38,141 nt of DNA from the IMG/VR virus record IMGVR_UViG_3300008517_000033, positions 1 through 38,141 of that record, one strand, 5' to 3'. Source of the DNA: a virus. Positions 4,976 to 28,686 of this stretch are shown piece by piece (the first letter of the stretch is position 1; the number at the start of each line of letters is the position of its first letter). The notes under the pieces are model-generated. The model did not search any database. It was not told where the DNA came from and saw only the letters and a list, made by a program, of their open reading frames with translations. The position numbers and the translations under genes are program-made.

Positions 4976-5064
4976 TACATTTTGTAGTCAATTATATACA
5001 AATTGTAGTCAACTTTAATTACAGTTATATTTTTGGTACAATGTTGTACTAATTCTACAATGTA
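4976..5064. promoter_or_regulatory. Cluster of TACAA...TTGTA palindromes
   Basis: Four related palindromes occur in 89 bases: TACATTTTGTA (4976-4986), TACAAATTGTA (4997-5007), TACAATGTTGTA (5037-5048) and TACAATGTA (5056-5064). The first two belong to a near-perfect 17-base direct repeat spaced exactly 21 bases, both carrying TTGACTACAA on the minus strand. This looks like a multi-site operator between the phosphoesterase gene and the downstream lysis-end genes. Confidence 0.4.
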
Positions 5065-5810
5065 TAATAATGTTTGCCGTATAGGATAAACGGATGCTTT
5101 CGTGGTATTATAATCTGATGTACATTAAATTTATCTTTAACGAATTTGACTACTGATATGCAGTATTGCCAGTTGGGGAAAGGTTTTTTAAACCATTCCC
5201 AAGCCAATTTAAAATCACACAGGCAACCATTCTCCCAGAATCCAAAATCACCGCCTGATTTATTTGAAGCACAACAAAAACCAGCCCTATGGGTATGCCC
5301 CATTATCCCACTTACCCATTGTTCATATAGTTCGTTCTTAGCAGTATATCCGGCAAACTTTCTCGCACTCGTACCGTGCTGGTAGTGAAAGTCATTATAT
5401 ACATACTCGCTTCCATAGGGGATTGATTTATAGCCGTAGTCTTTAAGCCCTATCTTTTCGTTCATATTGATAAGGCCTTCTACTGCGTGGTGAGCTGATA
5501 AATAACTATTGAATCTGTCTTCGTGATTTCCAAATAGGAATATTTTATCCGCTTTGCCGACTGCGTCCGATACCTTAGCGTTTGTCTCATAACCAGCTTT
5601 AAAATCCTGTGCTATGGTAGTTACTCTATCGGCTCTTTTATCAAATTTAGAGATTGACGGACAATCCACCTGGTCTCCCAAGTTAATCAGTTTGTCAGGT
5701 TTTAAGTTCTTTGCAAACTTTAATACTAAGTCAAGTATCTCTTTATGATAATATGGTGCGTGTAAATCATTTATTACAAGGTGAGTCTCAATACTGTTTT
5801 TGTCAAAAAT
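5055..5810 (-). CDS. Calcineurin-like metallophosphoesterase, about 251 aa, AUU start
   Basis: All metallophosphoesterase motifs are present: DLH (15-17), GDQVD (45-49), GNHE (94-97), a later H-Y-Q-H block and GHTH. Family members hydrolyse phosphodiester or phosphomonoester bonds using two metal ions. Phage versions are usually of unknown substrate. The first ATG/GTG/TTG in frame would cut off the essential DLH motif, so the true start must lie upstream. The only plausible start is ATT at 5810, five bases after a perfect AAGGAGG (5822-5816); an upstream in-frame TAA rules out anything much longer. It follows a large structured RNA. Confidence 0.75.
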   Translation of the reverse strand: MFDKNSIETHLVINDLHAPYYHKEILDLVLKFAKNLKPDKLINLGDQVDCPSISKFDKRADRVTTIAQDFKAGYETNAKVSDAVGKADKIFLFGNHEDRFNSYLSAHHAVEGLINMNEKIGLKDYGYKSIPYGSEYVYNDFHYQHGTSARKFAGYTAKNELYEQWVSGIMGHTHRAGFCCASNKSGGDFGFWENGCLCDFKLAWEWFKKPFPNWQYCISVVKFVKDKFNVHQIIIPRKHPFILYGKHYYTL

Positions 5811-10266: not shown

Positions 10267-10608
10267 TTAAATATCCATCCAAACATCTTTATCAGAAGGC
10301 CCTACAGGAGCAGTTGCTTGCACAGCTATAGAAGTTACTCCAGTTACCGCATCATCTGAAATTTCCATAATTAACCCACCGACAGAATCATATATTTTTA
10401 TGCCATAAACTCCAGCAATTAGTTTTCCCATTTTTAGACGCTCACTATCGGAATCATCAATCACTCTAAAAGCCCCGTCTTTCACCGCTGTATGATGAGC
10501 CTTGTCTTCCATTTTTAAGGCTCTAAGTTCAGATTCAATCTTGTTAAGTCTTTCAGTTAGATAGGCTATATCTTCAGGGCTGTATTTAGTAATACTCAAA
10601 ATTTTCAC
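10267..10608 (-). CDS. Tail-tip accessory protein, 113 aa
   Basis: A short coiled coil (residues 10-40, with a leucine heptad) followed by 'VIDDSDSERLKMGKL...GIKIYDSVGGLIMEI' beta-rich segment that resembles connector regions of phage tail proteins. Starts at GTG with GAGGTG upstream. Probably structural; context between tail proteins is the main support. Confidence 0.5.
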   Translation of the reverse strand: MKILSITKYSPEDIAYLTERLNKIESELRALKMEDKAHHTAVKDGAFRVIDDSDSERLKMGKLIAGVYGIKIYDSVGGLIMEISDDAVTGVTSIAVQATAPVGPSDKDVWMDI

Positions 10609-10612
10609 CTCA

Positions 10613-10639
10613 AATAAAAAAACACCTTTTTTGGTGTTT
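10613..10639 (-). terminator. Intrinsic terminator after an HNH gene
   Basis: AAACACC-AAAAAA-GGTGTTT stem-loop followed by a run of T and ATTTGAGGTG, the ribosome site of the next gene. Confidence 0.85.
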
Positions 10640-10674
10640 AAATTAATATTGAAAATTATTATGTTGCTAATACT

Positions 10675-11436
10675 TTATTTTTCTATAAATATCTTATTAT
10701 AAATTAGTTCAATAATAGATAGAAATTCTTGATGATTTAAATCTCTTTTTATAAAATTAACTTGTCTATCAACCCACTGAATATTTTCAATAGAATTTTC
10801 CCCGTCTTTGGTTTTAGGAATTATATGGTCAATACTTGCATTTTTCCCTATGATAAGTTCTCTACCTGAATAGATACACTTATAATTTTGTTTTTTAAGA
10901 AGTTCTTTTAGATATAGCCAATTCTTTGATGAACCAGTATTTGCACGAGCCATAGTCTTTAATAAGTGTTCTTCACACAGAAAATATTTATTTTGAATAA
11001 TTATAGATTTACCACAATAAACACATAAAAAATGTTTCCGTCTTTCTTTTCGTAATTTATTTTGTAGTTTTATGTTTTTTTGTGTGCAAGCATAACACAT
11101 AACATTTTTTTTATTTCTACGTTCTACTGAAAGAGGGATTTTGCATCGTACACATATTCCTTGTGTCTTTATATTTTTATATCGCTTATGCCAGTATTTT
11201 GATAATTCTGGCTTGAGCCTATTGTATCTTTCTTGTTGACATTTTATATATTTTTTTCTATATTTTAAATATGTTTTTTCTCTAATTTTCTTGAATTTTT
11301 CTGGATTGTTTTTTCTCCAATCTGCAATTGTCTTTTTACGAATAATGATTGTACATTCTTTACAATATTTTCTATTCCCTCTTTTCCAAATTTCCTTACC
11401 ACATTCTTTACATTTTATTCTTTTTTTATATTTCAT
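10675..11436 (-). CDS. Zinc-ribbon HNH endonuclease, 253 aa
   Basis: Four CxxC zinc knuckles (near residues 8, 25, 95 and 138) precede an HNH nuclease at about 185-250 with 'CIYSGRELIIGKNASIDHI' and 'NIQWVDRQVNFIKRDLNH'. The latter Asn-rich helix is typical of phage HNH proteins with this fold. The first 130 residues are extremely basic. A mobile, free-standing endonuclease placed between tail genes, followed by its own terminator. Confidence 0.85.
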   Translation of the reverse strand: MKYKKRIKCKECGKEIWKRGNRKYCKECTIIIRKKTIADWRKNNPEKFKKIREKTYLKYRKKYIKCQQERYNRLKPELSKYWHKRYKNIKTQGICVRCKIPLSVERRNKKNVMCYACTQKNIKLQNKLRKERRKHFLCVYCGKSIIIQNKYFLCEEHLLKTMARANTGSSKNWLYLKELLKKQNYKCIYSGRELIIGKNASIDHIIPKTKDGENSIENIQWVDRQVNFIKRDLNHQEFLSIIELIYNKIFIEK

Positions 11437-11505
11437 AAAACTACTTTCTGTTATTCTAATATAAAAAGAATTATACCATATAAAGAATTATTTGTCTACA
11501 TATAT

Positions 11506-12516
11506 TTACTGAAATTCAACTGCTATTTTTTCAACCTCATTACTGTCAACTGATACCGATAATTTTTTAATTCGCCTATATGTATCAATGTCAAGATATC
11601 CTTTCTTTATTCGCAGCCTTACCTCGTCTCCAACGCTATAAGATTTTAATACTGTATCTATAGTATCCCTCACATCGCACCCATAAATTTGCGTAGGGTT
11701 TGGATATTCCTCTACATATTTTTTAGCATGCTCGGCTAAGGTATTTAATTCTTTTACATCTGAATGAGAAAAGGACTCTTGCATAAGCCCATAAATTTCC
11801 TGGCTCTGCATATTGTGAGCAACACTATAAAGCAAGTCAATTCCCTCTCCGCTCCCTATTGCGTTTGCCTGGTTTACCAAATCCTTCATAGAAAAATTAA
11901 AATTAAGTCCAGTTATATTCTTTCCGTATTCAAAAACTATAGCTTCAAGTCGCCTGCCCTGATGAGCGTAGACATTCAAAACTTTATTTTGCGTAATTTC
12001 CAAATCGCAGCCATTTATAACTTCAGTCATTTGTATAAAGGCTTCATATACGTTTTTGAATGGAGAATATTCTCTATCCCTTTTTATTCCTGTAGTAACA
12101 CTTCCCTGTGTAATTCCGTAATTACCATTAGGCAAGCCCTGAAAGTCATCAATAAGTGTCCAGAGAATAGTTCCCTGCTCAATGTCGGTAAATATCTTAC
12201 CACTGGGATTTACTTCCATTTTTTCAAGCAGTGCAAGATACCCACTAAAAGTTAGAGTTAACCTTCCCGATATATCTCCCACATTTCCACTTACCCCAGA
12301 TAGCACTCCACTCCAGAGTTTTCTATCCCCTCTGAAAATATCTATGAAATGTCTTGCAGGAAATAAGTTATTCTGGGTAAACTTAGGGTCGTCAATATTA
12401 AAGGAAATATTGCAACCGCCAGCACGATTTAATTCCCAAAAATATTGGAAGCTATTCCACGAAGTAATTTCTTCTATGTAGATATTGTCGATATCCTTAA
12501 TACGCAGACTATAAAT
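11506..12516 (-). CDS. Gp37-like tail protein (tail-associated), about 336 aa, AUU start
   Basis: The sequence matches the siphovirus ReqiPepy6 Gp37-like group: an N-terminal beta-rich region (WSGVLSG near residue 65), 'YSPFKNVYEAFIQ', and 'GSGEG' in the middle third. These are baseplate or tail-tip hub proteins. No ATG/GTG/TTG starts sensibly: a TTG at 12552 lies inside a terminator. ATT at 12516 lies seven bases after AAAGGAG (12530-12524) and leaves the expected N-terminus (xYSLRIKDID). Confidence 0.75.
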   Translation of the reverse strand: MYSLRIKDIDNIYIEEITSWNSFQYFWELNRAGGCNISFNIDDPKFTQNNLFPARHFIDIFRGDRKLWSGVLSGVSGNVGDISGRLTLTFSGYLALLEKMEVNPSGKIFTDIEQGTILWTLIDDFQGLPNGNYGITQGSVTTGIKRDREYSPFKNVYEAFIQMTEVINGCDLEITQNKVLNVYAHQGRRLEAIVFEYGKNITGLNFNFSMKDLVNQANAIGSGEGIDLLYSVAHNMQSQEIYGLMQESFSHSDVKELNTLAEHAKKYVEEYPNPTQIYGCDVRDTIDTVLKSYSVGDEVRLRIKKGYLDIDTYRRIKKLSVSVDSNEVEKIAVEFQ

Positions 12517-21414: not shown

Positions 21415-21750
21415 TTACATTCCGGGATTCTTTCTATAAAATCTTAATCCCTTATATTCATCTTCATCATCATAGGTAACAGATTGACTTCCAAGCTTCT
21501 CAGATTTAACTCCAGATATTCTCTGCTCATAATCCCTGCATATTCTTTTCTTAATCCAGACTCTTACTGAAGCTGGTATTATCTCTGTGCTTGCAAAATT
21601 AGTATTTAAGAATTCTTCAGCACTATCACAAGCACCTTTTATCAAGTCTTCAATTAGGGTATCATCTTCTGTCACTTTTTCACTAATCTTTAGCTCGTTT
21701 TTCATTTCATCAACGGTTATGTCATTGTAATCATAAAGGGACATTACCAT
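21415..21750 (-). CDS. Head-tail connector, gp6-like adaptor, 111 aa
   Basis: Starts 'MSLYDYNDITVDEMKNELKI', then 'DDTLIEDLIKGACDSAEEFL' and a C-terminal 'ICRDYEQRIS' helix. This is the DNA-packaging/gp6 adaptor family that docks under the portal. Likely start at Met3 (ATGTCC) or Met1. Confidence 0.8.
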   Translation of the reverse strand: MVMSLYDYNDITVDEMKNELKISEKVTEDDTLIEDLIKGACDSAEEFLNTNFASTEIIPASVRVWIKKRICRDYEQRISGVKSEKLGSQSVTYDDEDEYKGLRFYRKNPGM

Positions 21751-22160
21751 CTACTCCTTTTTATAATTCCACTTTTTCTTTTCTTAGTTTTAAACTGATC
21801 AGTTGTAATTGGACTGATTTTCTTTCTCTCTTTTTTTCCTGTAGATTCTTCGAGTATTCCAATTTCTCTTGGTTCCACTTTTACCTCTTCTAGTTTTTTA
21901 CCATATCCTTCATATTCTTTTACTTTTTCTTCCTTGTTTTTTTCTGGCTCAATAATCTTTTTCTTATAAACCTCTTTTGATTTTTCCTTTGCAATCCTGA
22001 TAACTCCTTTTGGTTTTTCATTGATAATTGTAATTACCTCCACTAATTTGTAGTTAATTAGCAACCTTGCATAATGGTCATCTGCTTTGAATGTCTTGCC
22101 TTTTGGAATCATCTTTTTATTTCTATCCTGAAAAGTTTTTAGAGCTTTTACCTTATACAT
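21744..22160 (-). CDS. Hypothetical protein in the connector operon, 138 aa
   Basis: The first 45 residues (VKALKTFQDRNKKMIPKGKT, then KADDHYARLLINYKLVE) look like the small SH3-like domain frequently encoded beside phage connector genes. Residues 50-138 are Lys/Glu-rich and likely disordered. Probably a head decoration or head-tail protein, by context. AAGGAGGTG ribosome site. Confidence 0.5.
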   Translation of the reverse strand: MYKVKALKTFQDRNKKMIPKGKTFKADDHYARLLINYKLVEVITIINEKPKGVIRIAKEKSKEVYKKKIIEPEKNKEEKVKEYEGYGKKLEEVKVEPREIGILEESTGKKERKKISPITTDQFKTKKRKSGIIKRSRW

Positions 22161-22163
22161 ATT

Positions 22164-23972
22164 CTACACCTCCTTAAATATTGGTCTTTTTTCTTTCTTG
22201 GGGTCAAAATTACTTATTTTATTTAGACAAATTGCAATCTTATATCCAATTAATTGTTGCGCATATCTGCCAATGGCAACAAATTCATTATTTCTTCTAA
22301 CCATCCTATTGCCCCCTACAAAAGTTTTAAGAGCCTGCATTGCAAAATAGCTTTGAAGATCTGGTTCTTTAATTACTATTCCAGAAGTTGCTCCTTTAAA
22401 ATATATCTCATCCATTTCCCACCATCTTTTTACAGTTTTTCTTACATTCTCTAAATGCTTTATAGGGATTGCCTCATAATTAGTTCCTCTGGGACGGAGC
22501 TTTTTTATTATTCCATTATAGGCTGGATAATCAGGTGGAGTTTTGTATTTATTGGTTGCTGTTTGGTCCAACCTGTCAATCCAAACTCCTGTATAGAAAG
22601 CTGACGCCCAGTTTTCTGACATCTTATATTGATATCTCAGCCAGCCTCCCAATCCTCCTACAGATTCAATTGGTCTATCAGCTACCTGACGTCTTATAAG
22701 TATTCCTGTCCCGCCTCCATTTTTTGACAGGTAAAGTTTATTTCCTTTAAAATCCAAGCTATATAGATGCCGGTAAAATTCATCATTGGTCTTAATTCTA
22801 AATTTCAACATAAGATAATGGTCAGCTTGACAAATAAAGAAAGGATAGATATCCATAACTTCTTTTAATTTACTTAGCCAGTTTTTTGAAATTACAGTGT
22901 CATTGTCAACTTTTGCAACATATCTATAATCTGGATATTTCTTAAAGAAAGCAACCATTGGTGGCATAAGCCCACTGTTTGTCCTGTTATAGTGAATCTT
23001 TATATTGGCATTGTCCTCTAAAGTTTTCAGATAATTTTTAGTGTTTGCATCTGAAGCATTATCAAATATAAAGAGTTCGTAAGGCCAAATAGTATTTTTT
23101 AGGATTGAGGCTATTGCCTTTTTTGTATATTCCAGTCTATTATAGGATATTATCAGTATTGGAATTTTGCCTTTTATCTTTTTTACATCTTCTACTACTG
23201 TCCCATTTTCAACATAAAGATTAGAATTACTTCTTTTTCTTGCCAAAAATTTTGGTTTATTATTAACTCTCATTTTTGTTGGGTTTAGTCCCATCTCTAA
23301 TGTGGTACGATTTCCATAATGATGAACATAGCTTGCTTTTGCCCAACAAGATCTGTAACCTGTTTTTTGAGCACGCCACAAGAAATCTATATCCTCATGG
23401 GTAGCCATCCCGTAACGCTTCCAATCAAAAAATCCAATCTTACTAAATACCTCTTTTTTAATTATCCAGCAAAACCCCACTACTCCAACAAATACATATT
23501 CTTCCTTCATTGAAAATGCTACCTGGTTAATAAACTCCTGTGTTGCCTCAAATCTTATCTTGGAAAGCTTTTGGTTATGTTGAGAGCCTGTGCTGTGACA
23601 TGTTGAAGGGCCCACTATTCCCACATCACTATATAAGGTGAATGCTTTCATCATTTTACCTAGCCAGTTTTCAGATAACACAGTATCAGAATTTAAAAAA
23701 CAATAGTAATCAGAAGTAGCCACACTAATTGCCTGATTGCATCCATAAGCAAATCCCTTATTTTTTTCATTTGTAATCAGAGTAAAATCAAACCAATCTA
23801 GCTTCTTGAGATAATCTTTAGTCTCTTTTTTAGAATCATTGTCAACCAGAATTAGTTCATAATTATTAGTATATCTGTTAAGACTTCTAAGGCATCTGTC
23901 TACATATTTTAATGCATCTTTTATAAGAATTATGATTGAAACTTTAGGATGCTTTACATATTTTTTTAACAT
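22164..23972 (-). CDS. Tandem family-2 glycosyltransferase, 602 aa
   Basis: Two GT-A domains in one chain: the first (residues 8-230) has 'KVSIIILIKD...NYELILVDND', 'NKGFAYGCNQA' and 'CFLNSDTVL'; the second (from 265) has 'IPILIISYNRLEYTKKAIAS', 'LFIFDNAS' and 'VAKVDNDTV'. The NxD/DND motifs bind metal-nucleotide sugar. Residues about 480-602 are an extra region without recognised domain. Bifunctional enzymes of this sort extend polysaccharide chains. Last gene of the glycan cassette. Confidence 0.85.
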   Translation of the reverse strand: MLKKYVKHPKVSIIILIKDALKYVDRCLRSLNRYTNNYELILVDNDSKKETKDYLKKLDWFDFTLITNEKNKGFAYGCNQAISVATSDYYCFLNSDTVLSENWLGKMMKAFTLYSDVGIVGPSTCHSTGSQHNQKLSKIRFEATQEFINQVAFSMKEEYVFVGVVGFCWIIKKEVFSKIGFFDWKRYGMATHEDIDFLWRAQKTGYRSCWAKASYVHHYGNRTTLEMGLNPTKMRVNNKPKFLARKRSNSNLYVENGTVVEDVKKIKGKIPILIISYNRLEYTKKAIASILKNTIWPYELFIFDNASDANTKNYLKTLEDNANIKIHYNRTNSGLMPPMVAFFKKYPDYRYVAKVDNDTVISKNWLSKLKEVMDIYPFFICQADHYLMLKFRIKTNDEFYRHLYSLDFKGNKLYLSKNGGGTGILIRRQVADRPIESVGGLGGWLRYQYKMSENWASAFYTGVWIDRLDQTATNKYKTPPDYPAYNGIIKKLRPRGTNYEAIPIKHLENVRKTVKRWWEMDEIYFKGATSGIVIKEPDLQSYFAMQALKTFVGGNRMVRRNNEFVAIGRYAQQLIGYKIAICLNKISNFDPKKEKRPIFKEV

Positions 23973-24523
23973 TGTTTAACTCTTTCCCAATAACCAATAT
24001 TACCAATAATTTTAAGTTTTACTTCTAAAGCAAATTTATGTATAGGACTGAATTTTGGTGCAACATCATGAAATAATACTCTTCCGCATTTCTTCACAAG
24101 TTCAAAATCAGCTTTCACATTACCATAGCTATGTCTTCCATCTACAAAAGCAAAGTCAAACTTTATATTATCCAGTATTGGTTTAATATCTATAGCCTTT
24201 GGATTTGCAGGAAATTCTCCCTCATGATTCTTAATTACATTCCCATATCTACCTTTTATCAAGTAAAAAGTTATCTTATTCCTCACTTCTGCGTCATCCC
24301 AGACTTTATACTTTTCAACATAATCTATGACATCAAATGTATATACTTTATTTACAAATTGAGCAATATATGCTGTGGATATACCCCTGTATGTGCCGAT
24401 TTCCACCACAGTATCTATTTTTGTATTCTTGAAAAAATCTCTAAACTCAGGATTTCCTATGGCTGAATATTTGGCTACATTATTTTCTATTGCATATTTA
24501 TATACGTCTAACATATTTTCCAA
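23966..24523 (-). CDS. Class I SAM methyltransferase (Methyltransf_24-like), 185 aa
   Basis: Carries 'TVVEIGTYRGISTAYIAQF' (motif I, SAM binding), 'VYTFDVID' (motif II) and 'FDFAFVDGRHSYGNVKADFE' (typical of the Methyltransf_24 group acting in sugar or O-antigen pathways). The TTG at 24523 or the ATG at 24514 could start it. Probably methylates a glycan, possibly as a chain cap. Confidence 0.75.
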   Translation of the reverse strand: MENMLDVYKYAIENNVAKYSAIGNPEFRDFFKNTKIDTVVEIGTYRGISTAYIAQFVNKVYTFDVIDYVEKYKVWDDAEVRNKITFYLIKGRYGNVIKNHEGEFPANPKAIDIKPILDNIKFDFAFVDGRHSYGNVKADFELVKKCGRVLFHDVAPKFSPIHKFALEVKLKIIGNIGYWERVKQC

Positions 24524-25347
24524 TATTCTCCTAATTTAAAATCAATATCTCTAGGAAGTTTGCCATGTCCAGAACCTGGGTAATGCGTTATCTCACTAAA
24601 ATATATATAATCATCTACCAAAAAGAAATCTATTCTTATAAAGTCAAAACCCTTACTTAACTTCTCTGCAAATTCTATCATTTTATTAAAACTTCTAGGT
24701 TTTTCTACTATCTCTCCAATTTTATGGCCAGGTCTTACTATATCCATTGATTCCCAATTTTCATCATAATAACTAAAAGTCTCTTGATTTGGGGTAGTTA
24801 CATATATCATTTTGCATTTCTCACCAAACATACAAATTCTATAATCGTCTGGGAGCTTTCCACTTTTTTCATGAAGTAATTTTTCAACAACAATCAGTGG
24901 TTCAATTTGACTATATGCCCATTCATACCACTGTGACCCATGAACTGTCTTAAACCAATCTTCACAATAATCTATTATTTCCTTATTACTAAGATTGACT
25001 TCTTGCTTACATGTATAATTAATTTCATAATTATTTCCTTCAGCTAAAATCCATCTGCCCGCTCCGTTATTAGGCTTTATAATATATTCCTCTGGCAGCC
25101 TATCGAACGGTATTGTCTCAGGATTATCAGTAACATATAGCAATGGTATTAAATGGTTATCTGCTTCCCAACCAATTCTATCTCTTATATATTGTCTTGC
25201 CCTATATTTATCTGCTGTCAATGGCAGTAATGGGTTTCTATCAAACAACTTCTTATATATAATCTTCTCATTAAAAGATTGTGGATTCTCAAGATTTAAA
25301 GGATAACCATGAATCTTCAAAAATAAATTCTTCTCATCTTCGTACAT
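24508..25347 (-). CDS. TupA-like ATP-grasp glycan enzyme, 279 aa
   Basis: The start at 25347 (MYEDEKNLFLKIHGYPLNLE) fits TupA-like proteins ('LNL.NP.SFNEKI', 'DRNPLLPLTADKY') and has AAAGGA six bases upstream; a GTG at 25392 would overlap the previous gene. Motifs 'YIIKPNNGAG', 'PDDYRICMFGEKCKMI', 'IRIDFFLVDDYIYFSEIT' match the ATP-grasp fold. TupA-like enzymes act in teichuronopeptide and surface-glycan synthesis, usually joining an amino acid to a sugar acid. Here probably part of a surface-glycan pathway. Confidence 0.75.
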   Translation of the reverse strand: MYEDEKNLFLKIHGYPLNLENPQSFNEKIIYKKLFDRNPLLPLTADKYRARQYIRDRIGWEADNHLIPLLYVTDNPETIPFDRLPEEYIIKPNNGAGRWILAEGNNYEINYTCKQEVNLSNKEIIDYCEDWFKTVHGSQWYEWAYSQIEPLIVVEKLLHEKSGKLPDDYRICMFGEKCKMIYVTTPNQETFSYYDENWESMDIVRPGHKIGEIVEKPRSFNKMIEFAEKLSKGFDFIRIDFFLVDDYIYFSEITHYPGSGHGKLPRDIDFKLGEYWKIC

Positions 25348-25358
25348 ATCTAATTCCT

Positions 25359-25898
25359 TTATTTTATTAAAACAGCTATAGCGTTTGCCCACTTAAATGG
25401 TATATTATATTTCATTTTTCTGGCTTCTTCTCTTGTAGTTTCAATCCATTCGTTTTCTTTATTTATCCGTTTCATAAAATATATATTCTCGAGTCTATCC
25501 AGTATTCTATTCACTTCACAATTTTGTCCAATTGGAAATGTAATTAGAACTCTTGGTGCAAAAGTTAAAATCCTTCGGACTGCAAGTAATGGATTTGATG
25601 TATGCTCAACAGTAGAAATAGAAACGCACATTGAATATTTTTTCTCCGGTTCCCATTGAAGGACATTCTCCTTAATTGTAGGCCAAAGGGATTTTTCATT
25701 TAAATCCAAGACATCGTGGAAATAATCTCCTCTGTAATGCCTTAATACATTTCCAATTTCTATTACATTTTTATCAGAGCCATCCACAAACTCAAAAGCA
25801 ATAGGCAATTCAACTCGTCTCTCATTCAGACTTGTATAATTATAAGTCATATCAACATATCTATATTCTTTGCCTCTAAATTTAAAAATTTTATCCAT
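25359..25898 (-). CDS. Methyltransferase-like protein of the glycan cassette, 179 aa
   Basis: Contains 'KNVIEIGNVLRHY' (motif-I-like but without the full GxGxG), then 'YSMCVSISTVEHTSNPLLAV' near residue 95, the post-motif region of SAM enzymes that sits beside the sugar pocket. The shortened motif I leaves SAM binding uncertain. Homologues frequently accompany glycosyltransferases. Function inferred only. Confidence 0.55.
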   Translation of the reverse strand: MDKIFKFRGKEYRYVDMTYNYTSLNERRVELPIAFEFVDGSDKNVIEIGNVLRHYRGDYFHDVLDLNEKSLWPTIKENVLQWEPEKKYSMCVSISTVEHTSNPLLAVRRILTFAPRVLITFPIGQNCEVNRILDRLENIYFMKRINKENEWIETTREEARKMKYNIPFKWANAIAVLIK

Positions 25899-25903
25899 TT
25901 TTC

Positions 25904-26566
25904 TTATACTACTGCAAGTCTGGGATGAAGAAATTTTTGAAAATATTTATTATCAATAATATTTCCTTTCATTACACCTACTTTTATACCTAACTTGTAC
26001 AGTGAATAATTAAAACTTAATTGGTCTCTTTTACTATATCTACAAATTTCTACCCACCAAAAATTATTAAACTTCTTAACCTCATCGCAATTTTTTCTTA
26101 AAAGAATCGTACATTCAAAAAGTCCATTATGTTCAGGATATCCCTCTTTCTTGTAGTGAAAAATCTGTTCTTTTATTAAATCTATACTATCAAGTTTTAA
26201 ATTCATACAAACATTAGCCTCATCATAAATACAATTTCTACCGGTATTATGTCTGAAGAGTGCAATATTATTTTTTCTTAAATACTTACTAACCAAAATT
26301 TTAGCTGGTACTATCAGACTAATATTTGCATCCATCCAAAGTACATATTTATATCCATCTAAATATTTATGTGCCAAGACCTTATGTACTTTCGCATTAC
26401 GGCTCGGATCAACAAATAGATTGCAGGCTCTCCTTATTTTCCAGACATTAGATTTTAAATTACTATTATCAGTAAAGCATATAAAATCAGCTCCGTCTGT
26501 AACTTGCTCATTTCGCAAAGGGTCTCTATTCCCTGTTATTACTGTATAAACTGCAATCTCATTCAT
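25904..26566 (-). CDS. DUF616/TOD1-like glycosyltransferase, 220 aa
   Basis: Starts 'IAVYTVITGNRDPLRNEQVT', followed by 'DFICFTDNS', 'NAKVHKVLAHKYLDGYKYVL' and 'WMDANIS', the DUF616 glycosyltransferase pattern with a D-x-N in place of DxD. Probably transfers a sugar from a nucleotide donor. Its ATG overlaps the TGA of the preceding gene. Confidence 0.75.
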   Translation of the reverse strand: MNEIAVYTVITGNRDPLRNEQVTDGADFICFTDNSNLKSNVWKIRRACNLFVDPSRNAKVHKVLAHKYLDGYKYVLWMDANISLIVPAKILVSKYLRKNNIALFRHNTGRNCIYDEANVCMNLKLDSIDLIKEQIFHYKKEGYPEHNGLFECTILLRKNCDEVKKFNNFWWVEICRYSKRDQLSFNYSLYKLGIKVGVMKGNIIDNKYFQKFLHPRLAVV

Positions 26567-27336
26567 ACAACTCTCCTAAACAAACTTATATGCCATTCTC
26601 TAAAATTATTCCAAGTCCAATTCTCTATACAATTATCTTTGGCTTTTATATTTTCTTCTATATTTTTAAAGTACAGGAGTAGTTCTTCATAATCTTCATA
26701 TATAAAATCTCCAGCAGTTTTAAGACTACGAATAAATCCAATATCTCTTGATACCACAGGAGTTCTACTATAAATAGCATTTAATATATCCATGCAACCA
26801 CCTTCCTGCTTTGATGCCTGCAAATAATAATCTATGTCCCTAAAGAACTCATCATTTGTGGTGTTGCAATGTTTAAATTCAAATATACTACTATCCAAAT
26901 CTTTTTTTAACTGCTCAATCTCTTGCCAATTTTTTCTATCATCTGCATAATTTCTACCACTTGTTCCTATTAGTATCTTTTTCTTTGTTGAAACTGATAT
27001 TCCAAAATAAGGACAAATCTCTATTTTCTTACTTTCAATTCCCTTTTCGGTAAGCCACTGCTTACCATGTACGGACATACAAATTACTAAGTCTGCCTTA
27101 TCTAATATGGGAAGTTTATGCTCTTTTGGTTTACTGCAATGGGCAAAAGAGACTATGTCAAACTTACCTTTTGTTAGATTATTTACTTCTTGCCAATATA
27201 CCCAGTCTATATAATAATTTATATCTCCCGGCCCAGTTACTATCTGTATATTCTTGTCCTCTATTTTCGTGAGTTCCAGGCCTATTTTTTGCAATATCCA
27301 GTTATCTTTAGGATATATAATATTTATATTAATCAT
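26563..27336 (-). CDS. GT-B type glycosyltransferase, 257 aa
   Basis: Residues 95-250 have the GT4-like C-terminal half: 'KKKILIGTSGRNYADDRK' and 'ASKQEGGCMDILNAIYSRTP', the E-G-G loop that binds the nucleotide donor. The N-terminal acceptor domain is short, as in small phage GTs. First gene of the glycan cassette, starting shortly after the capsid gene and a 13-bp inverted repeat. Confidence 0.75.
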   Translation of the reverse strand: MININIIYPKDNWILQKIGLELTKIEDKNIQIVTGPGDINYYIDWVYWQEVNNLTKGKFDIVSFAHCSKPKEHKLPILDKADLVICMSVHGKQWLTEKGIESKKIEICPYFGISVSTKKKILIGTSGRNYADDRKNWQEIEQLKKDLDSSIFEFKHCNTTNDEFFRDIDYYLQASKQEGGCMDILNAIYSRTPVVSRDIGFIRSLKTAGDFIYEDYEELLLYFKNIEENIKAKDNCIENWTWNNFREWHISLFRRVV

Positions 27337-27348
27337 GTTTTTGCTATC

Positions 27349-27391
27349 ATAAATAAGCAGGAAGACAGTTAATACCTCCCTGCTTATTTAT
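27349..27391 (-). terminator. Long hairpin between capsid and glycan genes
   Basis: Perfect 13-bp inverted repeat ATAAATAAGCAGG / CCTGCTTATTTAT, extendable by three pairs, with a 17-base spacer. The T-tract is broken (TTATTTAT), so termination may be partial; it could also be an RNA-end protector for the abundant capsid message. Confidence 0.5.
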
Positions 27392-27408: not shown

Positions 27409-28686
27409 TTAGCTCTCTGCAGGCGCACTATCAAAAGTAATCTTAACAAAAGATTGCGGCCTGAATACAGTTAAAGCAACTCTTTCTTCTGCCAATATGC
27501 AGACTAAATTTTCTATAAAGAAATCTGCATGGTGCTCAGAGATTCTTATTGTTGCTTGTTCCCTATCCCACAAATATGCTCCAAGAGCAAAAGCTCCTGT
27601 TAATGCTTCAGTTGCAACCATAGCTGTGGTTTCAACAACCGGTACCCTAAACAATCTTGACTGTCCACCCTGGGTAACTGTTATCCAAACATAGTGCTCA
27701 TCTGAACCTTTGAGTAACTCTATATCTTCCCAATCCTGTGGAGCCAATACTATTCCAGTTACCTCATATTCAGCCAGTCTTGCCAGAGTCATTGCCCTTC
27801 TAATACAATCTATTTTTGTATCTCCAACTGTTCCATTAGACCAGAGATAGCTCTGTATATTTGCATTATTCATAATCCCTGTAAGATTAGGAGAAACACC
27901 ATTCCCATAAAGGATCTGGTCTTCCTCAACTCTCTTGAGACCATAAATTAACCTCTTATCAACATAGGCTCTAATTTGAGACACATCTGCTAGTACCTGC
28001 CTTGAAACTGGTATCCAGTGAGCAAGAGTCTTTACTGCTTCAGTCTTCAGTTCAAATGTCAGCTTTGACTGTGGTTTTGCCTTTGTCACTTTTACTGGTG
28101 CTGCATTGATTGTATAACCAGTTTCTTCTACATAATCAATAGCATTAGTACCTATAGGCTGAACAGTAAGTAGATCTCTTATTCTCAAAGGTCTTTCAGG
28201 CGGGGTAATTATTTCAGGAAATCTTAAAGCAACTGCTAAGTTACCACCAGTTATTGCCGATACAAGTTCATCTGCTTTATAAAAACTCTTTACATTAACT
28301 GGAGGACAATTTACATCTTTTCTTTCAAGCATTCCTTTATAGATTTCACTTTTTGTAAACTCATCCCCTGGAGTCTTCATTTCCTCTCCACTTGCACCAA
28401 AGCCTGGCCTCTGCATCTGCTTTTCAAACTCATCAATTCTCTTTTGAGCTTCTTCTACTTCTTTGGATTTCTCATCCACCACTTTCATTTTTTCCTCAAG
28501 CTCTTTAGAACCTTTATCTATTTCGGTCTGTATATCCTTGAGAGTTTTTCCTAATTTATCTATCTCTTTACCAGTGCTTTCCTTACCGACTCCGAGCTCT
28601 TTTATTTCGGCTGCCTGCTTCTCATTTATATCTTTAAATTTTGCAAACTCATCTTTAAATAAAGTTTGTAGTTCTTCTAATTCCAT
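27409..28686 (-). CDS. Major capsid protein with N-terminal delta domain, 425 aa
   Basis: Residues 1-95 are a highly charged coiled coil (scaffold-like delta domain). 'GFGASGEEMKTPGDEF' marks the likely protease cleavage region, and residues 100-425 match the HK97 gp5 fold, with 'GGNLAVALRFPEII' and 'YGNGVSPNLTGIM' and a 'LVCILAEERVALTVFRPQSF' end. The capsid protease is encoded immediately upstream. Expressed from its own promoter and a structured leader. Confidence 0.9.
   Translation of the reverse strand: MELEELQTLFKDEFAKFKDINEKQAAEIKELGVGKESTGKEIDKLGKTLKDIQTEIDKGSKELEEKMKVVDEKSKEVEEAQKRIDEFEKQMQRPGFGASGEEMKTPGDEFTKSEIYKGMLERKDVNCPPVNVKSFYKADELVSAITGGNLAVALRFPEIITPPERPLRIRDLLTVQPIGTNAIDYVEETGYTINAAPVKVTKAKPQSKLTFELKTEAVKTLAHWIPVSRQVLADVSQIRAYVDKRLIYGLKRVEEDQILYGNGVSPNLTGIMNNANIQSYLWSNGTVGDTKIDCIRRAMTLARLAEYEVTGIVLAPQDWEDIELLKGSDEHYVWITVTQGGQSRLFRVPVVETTAMVATEALTGAFALGAYLWDREQATIRISEHHADFFIENLVCILAEERVALTVFRPQSFVKITFDSAPAES

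Follow-up and report, generated by a model that had tools for sequence, protein, structure and literature searches.

The window considered here, that is, the whole stretch of DNA analysed, is a 38,141-base virus record (IMGVR_UViG_3300008517_000033) belonging to a siphophage, with coding chiefly on the minus strand. The head part of its late operon comprises the terminase (34516-33212), a portal fused with a Mu-F-like domain, an S78 prohead protease, the major capsid protein and then, at 22164-27336, a cassette of six co-oriented open reading frames (ORFs) that overlap or lie a few bases apart; these are followed by a small gene, an Ad1 connector, an HNH gene, the Hc1 head closure and Ne1 neck genes and, in the last part of the operon, by a terminator-type gene, the major tail protein, the tape measure and Dit (Table 1). 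The initial annotation had described the cassette as a close-set group of glycan-modification genes reaching from capsid to connector, and the ORFs are indeed present on the minus strand, with the small gene preceding the connector. Non-structural glycosyltransferase and methyltransferase genes therefore separate the major capsid gene from the head-tail connector genes, and their GC content, at 29-33%, lies below the 35-39% of the terminase, portal, protease and capsid genes. A prophage junction or host polysaccharide locus was rejected as an explanation, given that the genes to either side are those of a phage (terminase, portal, protease and capsid on one; connectors, tail tube, tape measure and Dit on the other). 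Loci designated below by L-numbers are viral contigs found by scans for related cassettes.

Table 1. Features of the cassette and its borders, in window positions and in order of transcription.
Feature	Position	Strand	Basis and remarks
Major capsid protein, HK97 fold	27409..28686	-	PF05065 E 1.1e-51; phrog_10; upstream boundary
19-bp RNA hairpin	27349..27391	-	Just past the capsid stop codon; minimum free energy -22.3 kcal/mol, z -4.8
GT-B glycosyltransferase	26563..27336	-	Glycos_transf_1 PF00534 E 2.8e-6, barely above cut-off
PF04765 (TOD1_MUCI70, formerly DUF616) glycosyltransferase	25904..26566	-	Pfam E 6.4e-21; phrog_26101 E 7.5e-24
Probable class I S-adenosylmethionine (SAM) methyltransferase, 179 residues	25359..25898	-	Motifs VIEIGNVL and SISTVEH, by eye alone
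TupA-like ATP-grasp carboxylate-amine ligase	24508..25392	-	PF14305 ATPgrasp_TupA E 7.9e-30
Methyltransf_24 (MT24) methyltransferase	23966..24523	-	PF13578 E 7.4e-12; EIGTxxG motif
Tandem GT2, two GT-A domains	22164..23972	-	PF00535 E 1e-43, two stretches
Small Lys-rich protein, phrog_2616-like, function unassigned	21744..22160	-	Adjoins the connector
gp6/Ad1-type head-tail connector	21415..21750	-	PF05135 E 1e-10; phrog_40 head-tail adaptor Ad1; downstream boundary

The TupA-like ligase matches PF14305 with 104.6 bits against a curated cut-off of 25, over positions 1-240 of the 241 in the profile. Its residues K106, E170, D255 and E267, which from general knowledge of ATP-grasp enzymes we take to be the ATP-binding lysine and the metal-binding acidic residues, are invariant across five phage proteins. 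The true start is probably the ATG at 25347, homologues opening with MYEDE, and the overlap with the preceding gene is for that reason not required. The predicted structure is weak, with a predicted local distance difference test (pLDDT) score of 57.6, and the ATP-grasp enzymes retrieved with it by Foldseek, at a template modelling (TM) score of about 0.3, restate the fold class only. Close relatives were found in viral contigs only, and a FastTree tree places the five phage proteins together (support 1.000), apart from the sampled cellular ones. PF14305 is found above its cut-off in 47 of 593 genomes of two phyla (30/398 and 17/195), and the 16 cellular members inspected are 25-33% identical to the window protein; a pattern scan over 84,980 species returned no close cellular relative, a result limited by the pattern, which missed distant cellular members too. 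An origin of the cassette mainly in bacterial polysaccharide loci was set aside, since neither the scan nor the 16 inspected proteins held a close cellular TupA. Matches in an annotated-phage collection proved to be unannotated fragments and were not counted as phage evidence; one such fragment that was inspected, L014, is set among bacterial-type polysaccharide genes. A PF04765 gene is adjacent to TupA, or one gene off, in all seven phage TupA loci inspected (the window and six others, four of which were retrieved via TupA alone). In Campylobacter jejuni Cj1438, the TupA-like domain (Cj1438C) amidates glucuronate at the C6 carboxylate (PMC11800379), and by analogy the window ligase most likely amidates a uronic acid.

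As regards the remaining enzymes, five of the six identities first proposed are supported by clear family matches, and the catalytic motifs are intact across the GT2 domains, the PF04765 protein, the GT-B, the MT24 and the TupA enzymes. The GT-B glycosyltransferase, with an intact EGG motif, is 57% identical to a cassette protein of L134 and 40% to one of L139, the PF04765 protein carries a WMDAN motif (DAN intact), and the MT24 enzyme, which probably starts at the ATG at 24514, is 43-54% identical to five cassette relatives. The sixth identity is less firm: the 179-residue product of 25359-25898 gave no Pfam, NCBIfam, PHROG or PDB sequence match, and from its motifs it is likely a methyltransferase. 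Its AlphaFold2 model (pLDDT 41) failed and was not used, and L011 has at the corresponding position a methyltransferase with no detectable similarity to it. The tandem GT2 bears a DXD-like motif in each domain (NSD at 94-96, DND at 356-358), and its PDB sequence matches include chondroitin synthase; as a single-protein query against viral contigs it gave no match, and a 72% identical copy occupies the same place in L005. That copy (10299-12104) contains one in-frame stop, and the L005 terminase is also split, through sequencing error or decay. None of 25 cassette proteins tested has a membrane-like segment (no hydrophobic segment of at least 1.6), while two phage controls gave positives; the enzymes thus appear soluble, which makes lipid-linked assembly and export unlikely.

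When related phage genomes were searched, as the initial annotation had proposed, varied cassettes were found to recur at the same boundary. Retrieval of the loci relied on the enzymes (for L005, on the capsid) and never on position, so that their shared position is not a selection effect. The cassette lies between capsid and connectors in the window, L005, L011, L134/L135, L178, L002 and L139; in L003, whose cassette is of a type like that of L002, it directly follows the capsid, and the contig ends within it. Cassettes of differing content thereby occupy the capsid-connector boundary in three or more further head modules, in which neither capsid nor connector aligns to that of the window. 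L005 is a relative of the window phage (terminase 79%, portal 73% and capsid 73% identical) and keeps the tandem GT2, the rest being replaced by FkbM, GT2-MT24 fusion, GNAT and DegT genes. L011 has, in order, capsid, small gene, GT2, GT2, GT2-PF04765, methyltransferase, TupA (about 72%), GT2-like gene and connector; L002 has capsid, glycosyltransferase, a fused small-domain/GT-B/PF04765 gene, TupA, MT24, small gene and connector; and L134/L135 has capsid, small gene, multi-domain GT2, GT-B, further enzymes including MT24, and connector. L178 and L139 are organised likewise, with other enzyme sets. A protein of the cobalamin (B12)-type radical SAM class was recognised by eye inside the L134 cassette (L134:6860-7999) and suggests unusual sugar chemistry. 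Six kinds of record combine a PF05065 capsid with a PF04765 enzyme (L003, L011, L134/L135, L139, L178 and L163), and all except L163 have the cassette immediately after the capsid. Of the capsid's relatives, about 120 were compared (about 30-57% identical, L005 apart); a recognisable post-capsid cassette is present in L005 alone, and the cassette is accordingly lineage-specific and not general to this capsid family.

The history of the cassette differs from that of the head genes around it. BLASTP divides the capsids into four groups without substantial mutual alignment, namely the window with L005; L011, L134, L178 and L003; L002; and L139, and the connectors show a similar pattern. The TupA proteins of the window, L011 and L002 are nevertheless 67-72% identical, although the capsids, portals and connectors of these phages do not align, and therefore the module moves on its own. 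That the enzymes are closer to one another than are the accompanying head genes is what would be expected from horizontal exchange into one slot, and, judged from these alignments, the cassette is a module that is exchanged and favours a particular slot. Its content varies at this site among related phages, both between the window and L005 and among L134, L178 and L011; L134 and L178, for instance, have 94% identical capsids and different cassettes. The capsids of L011 (3438-4328) and L178 (5071-5967) are 45% identical, with portals at 86-87% and scaffolds at 80% in these otherwise close phages, as though only the capsid gene had been exchanged. Exchange of capsid and cassette as a single allele was also considered: the comparison of L011 with L178 fits it (capsid 45%, flanks 80-87%), but strict linkage is countered by L134 and L178.

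A possible connection between the enzymes and the particle comes from the small proteins flanking the cassettes, which resemble one another in part. The small gene lies 5' of the cassette in L011, L134, L178 and L003 and 3' of it in the window, L005 and L002. In L003, L134 and L178 the multi-domain glycosyltransferase has as its N-terminus a similar stretch of about 38-50 residues, 40-53% identical to the L011 protein, and in L002 the domain fused to GT-B/PF04765 shares 49% identity with the small protein that the phage also encodes separately. In a leave-one-out profile test the L002 pair is well supported and the other small-domain fusions weakly. These fusions suggest that enzyme and head-assembly protein may work together.

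Taken together, the locus is read as a virion-glycosylation cassette, its soluble enzymes making and capping a short glycan on one of the virion proteins, an interpretation to which we attach a probability somewhat above even. The head operon would supply the six enzymes late, alongside the capsid. Of these, the glycosyltransferases (tandem GT2, PF04765 type and GT-B) would draw on host nucleotide sugars to make a short and partly acidic glycan in the cytoplasm, which one of them would initiate on a virion protein, either the capsid or the small connector-side protein. With ATP, the TupA-like ligase would join an amine or amino acid to a sugar carboxylate as an amide, and the methyltransferases would cap hydroxyls as methyl ethers. 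We infer which sugars are used, what TupA acts on, how the steps are ordered, any benefit and the virion-protein acceptor, the last because of the late head-operon position and the precedent of mycobacteriophages, whose capsid and tail tube carry glycans (Freeman 2023, as relayed in PMC11256854 and PMC12619734). The building and capping of a glycan on the virion, as initially suggested, is in this way the best reading by context and precedent, its acceptor being the conjectural part. Since relatives hold other sets (DegT aminotransferase, GNAT and FkbM; B12-type radical SAM), the locus behaves as an exchangeable coat or serotype locus. It is possible, albeit doubtful, that unrelated phages generally use the capsid-connector boundary to trade such coat serotype loci, one for amide-capped uronate glycans included, and that the fused domain docks glycosyltransferases on the head during assembly, coating the particle with sugar while it is being built.

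Several observations weigh against virion glycosylation. An operon neighbourhood is no proof of target, and no nucleotide-sugar dehydrogenase was identified, for which reason a uronate donor would need host supply. L004 has the trio of TupA, PF04765 and MT24 away from head genes, in a replication-type neighbourhood, and the large phages L225 and L226 pair TupA with PF04765 in other contexts; the chemistry is thus not tied to the capsid slot. Only 3 of 42 PF04765-selected records scanned have a PF05065 capsid, the others including T4-like phages. In L004 (8001-11393), TupA, two MT24 genes and a cassette-type radical SAM gene adjoin DNA-processing genes.

Among alternative roles, the enzymes might alter the host surface polysaccharide after infection, so as to block superinfection or keep progeny from adsorbing again to debris. 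Enzymes of the TupA-like and GT2 kinds are characteristic of loci for bacterial surface polysaccharides (PMC11800379), NCBIfam similarities to TuaG and PgaC, below the cut-off, point the same way, and comparable reasoning has been applied to pelagiphage glycosyltransferases (PMC7029224). This is nonetheless unlikely, because the tested cassettes lack membrane segments and hence any flippase or GtrA-type protein, the record, possibly a fragment, holds no tyrosine integrase (PF00589) while serotype converters are prophage-linked, and the cassette has a late head-operon position and a recurrent capsid-connector placement. The marks of a Gtr-type serotype-conversion operon were absent: the membrane flippase or GtrA and the membrane-anchored glycosyltransferase from the cassette proteins tested, and the PF00589 integrase from the record.

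More doubtful still is the idea that the TupA ligase acts on a protein side chain or C-terminus, in the manner of RimK or graspetide ligases, instead of on a sugar. The Foldseek matches do include RimK, ArgX and graspetide ligases, and the linked small protein has a Lys-rich tail; however, those matches come from the weak model described above, the sequence family is PF14305, whose characterised member acts on glucuronate (PMC11800379), and the constant proximity of a PF04765 glycosyltransferase in the TupA loci favours a sugar substrate.

Modification of phage DNA, with a hypermodified base carrying sugars, is very improbable: many phage glycosyltransferases target DNA and the cassette has methyltransferases, but no thymidylate-synthase/hydroxymethylase family gene (PF00303) was found in the record, possibly a fragment, and the genes stand with the head and not with replication genes. 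The Methyltransf_24 and TupA families are not known to modify DNA. Finally, a passenger (moron) set with no dedicated role here, maintained by mobility alone, is scarcely credible, as its mosaic distribution, content turnover, occurrence in just one of the roughly 120 capsid relatives and in-frame stop in the L005 tandem GT2 are set against intact catalytic motifs in the window, an entire multi-gene set kept at one site in several lineages and a tandem GT2 conserved at 72% between the window and L005.

Some features of the wider genome deserve mention. The sequence of the hairpin past the capsid stop codon is near-identical in L005 (z -3.45), and hairpins at the capsid end are also present in L134 (-3.3), L002 (-4.4) and L011 (-2.3); the structure beats shuffles in five of seven loci folded and is not clear in L178 and L003. 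It has no strong T run, and a role as attenuator or RNA-end element is consequently likelier than one as a full terminator. It is a possible attenuator or processing site dividing capsid from cassette, and would yield much capsid and little enzyme. Promoter-like matches in the sequence are no denser than in shuffles. Relatives of the window terminase, about 50% identical, are scattered across many hosts, and no host can be assigned from them. At least five free-standing endonuclease ORFs of HNH/NUMOD3-like type are dispersed over the genome (21053-21403, 14015-14617, 10675-11436, 6464-7018 and 3060-3494); the first, which sits amid the connector genes, is confirmed by Pfam and the other four were recognised by eye and BLASTP. 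Three of the five are similar to one ORF in the L134 genome (31-62%). A metallo-phosphoesterase-like ORF at 5055-5681 (phrog_221) matches the C-terminal part of its family only and may be an N-terminally cut gene.

If virion glycosylation is correct, capsid surface chemistry would be predictable from gene order, and the fused domain would offer a testable route by which enzymes find the particle. Virion glycosylation has been demonstrated in very few phages, and the present finding points to a recognisable genomic slot common to unrelated phages; TupA-type amidation is a chemistry not reported for virions in the literature searched. The matter bears on particle stability, adsorption and the recognition of capsids by bacterial defences.

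With respect to known systems, calling the cassette an undescribed system, as was first done, is too strong, because insertions at the same boundary were described in 2013 in Cluster J mycobacteriophages, which have 8-10 glycosyltransferase, methyltransferase and kinase genes between capsid and head-tail connector genes (PMC3706429). As in the window, several glycosyltransferases and SAM methyltransferases stand between the major capsid and head-to-tail adaptor of Omega, Thibault, LittleE and Courthouse and vary among relatives; a two-domain glycosyltransferase of Omega has been compared to chondroitin synthase (PMC3706429), and Thibault has a small gene just before the adaptor. Thibault differs, however, in lacking TupA/PF14305 and having kinase and metallopeptidase genes instead, and tblastn of the window's glycosyltransferase, methyltransferase-like and TupA proteins against mycobacteriophages revealed no similarity, although remote homology within GT2 may exist. 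As far as its genes indicate, the window locus is of the same kind as the Cluster J locus and not a member of the Omega/Thibault gene lineage. Corndog (Cluster O) likewise has an O-methyltransferase and three glycosyltransferases within the head operon, for which capsid modification has been proposed, but the set lies between portal and protease and no ATP-grasp enzyme is reported (PMC4351075). Cellulophaga phage phi12:1, an isolated phage, has Methyltransf_24 and PF04765 genes among its head genes; these are two enzymes only, upstream of the prohead protease and without TupA. In Cj1438, compared here by its published description, a TupA-like ATP-grasp domain also partners a GT2 on an acidic glycan (PMC11800379), that of a bacterial capsule and within a single fused polypeptide. 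The literature searched yielded no paper joining TupA, ATP-grasp and phage, and the presence of a TupA-like ligase in a capsid-connector cassette, a combination first flagged as unusual for a head operon, is new as far as the tools reach. Loci of this kind were thus known before, and the novelty lies in the TupA/PF04765 chemistry, in the use of one slot by unrelated phages and in the fusion of a connector-side domain to glycosyltransferases.

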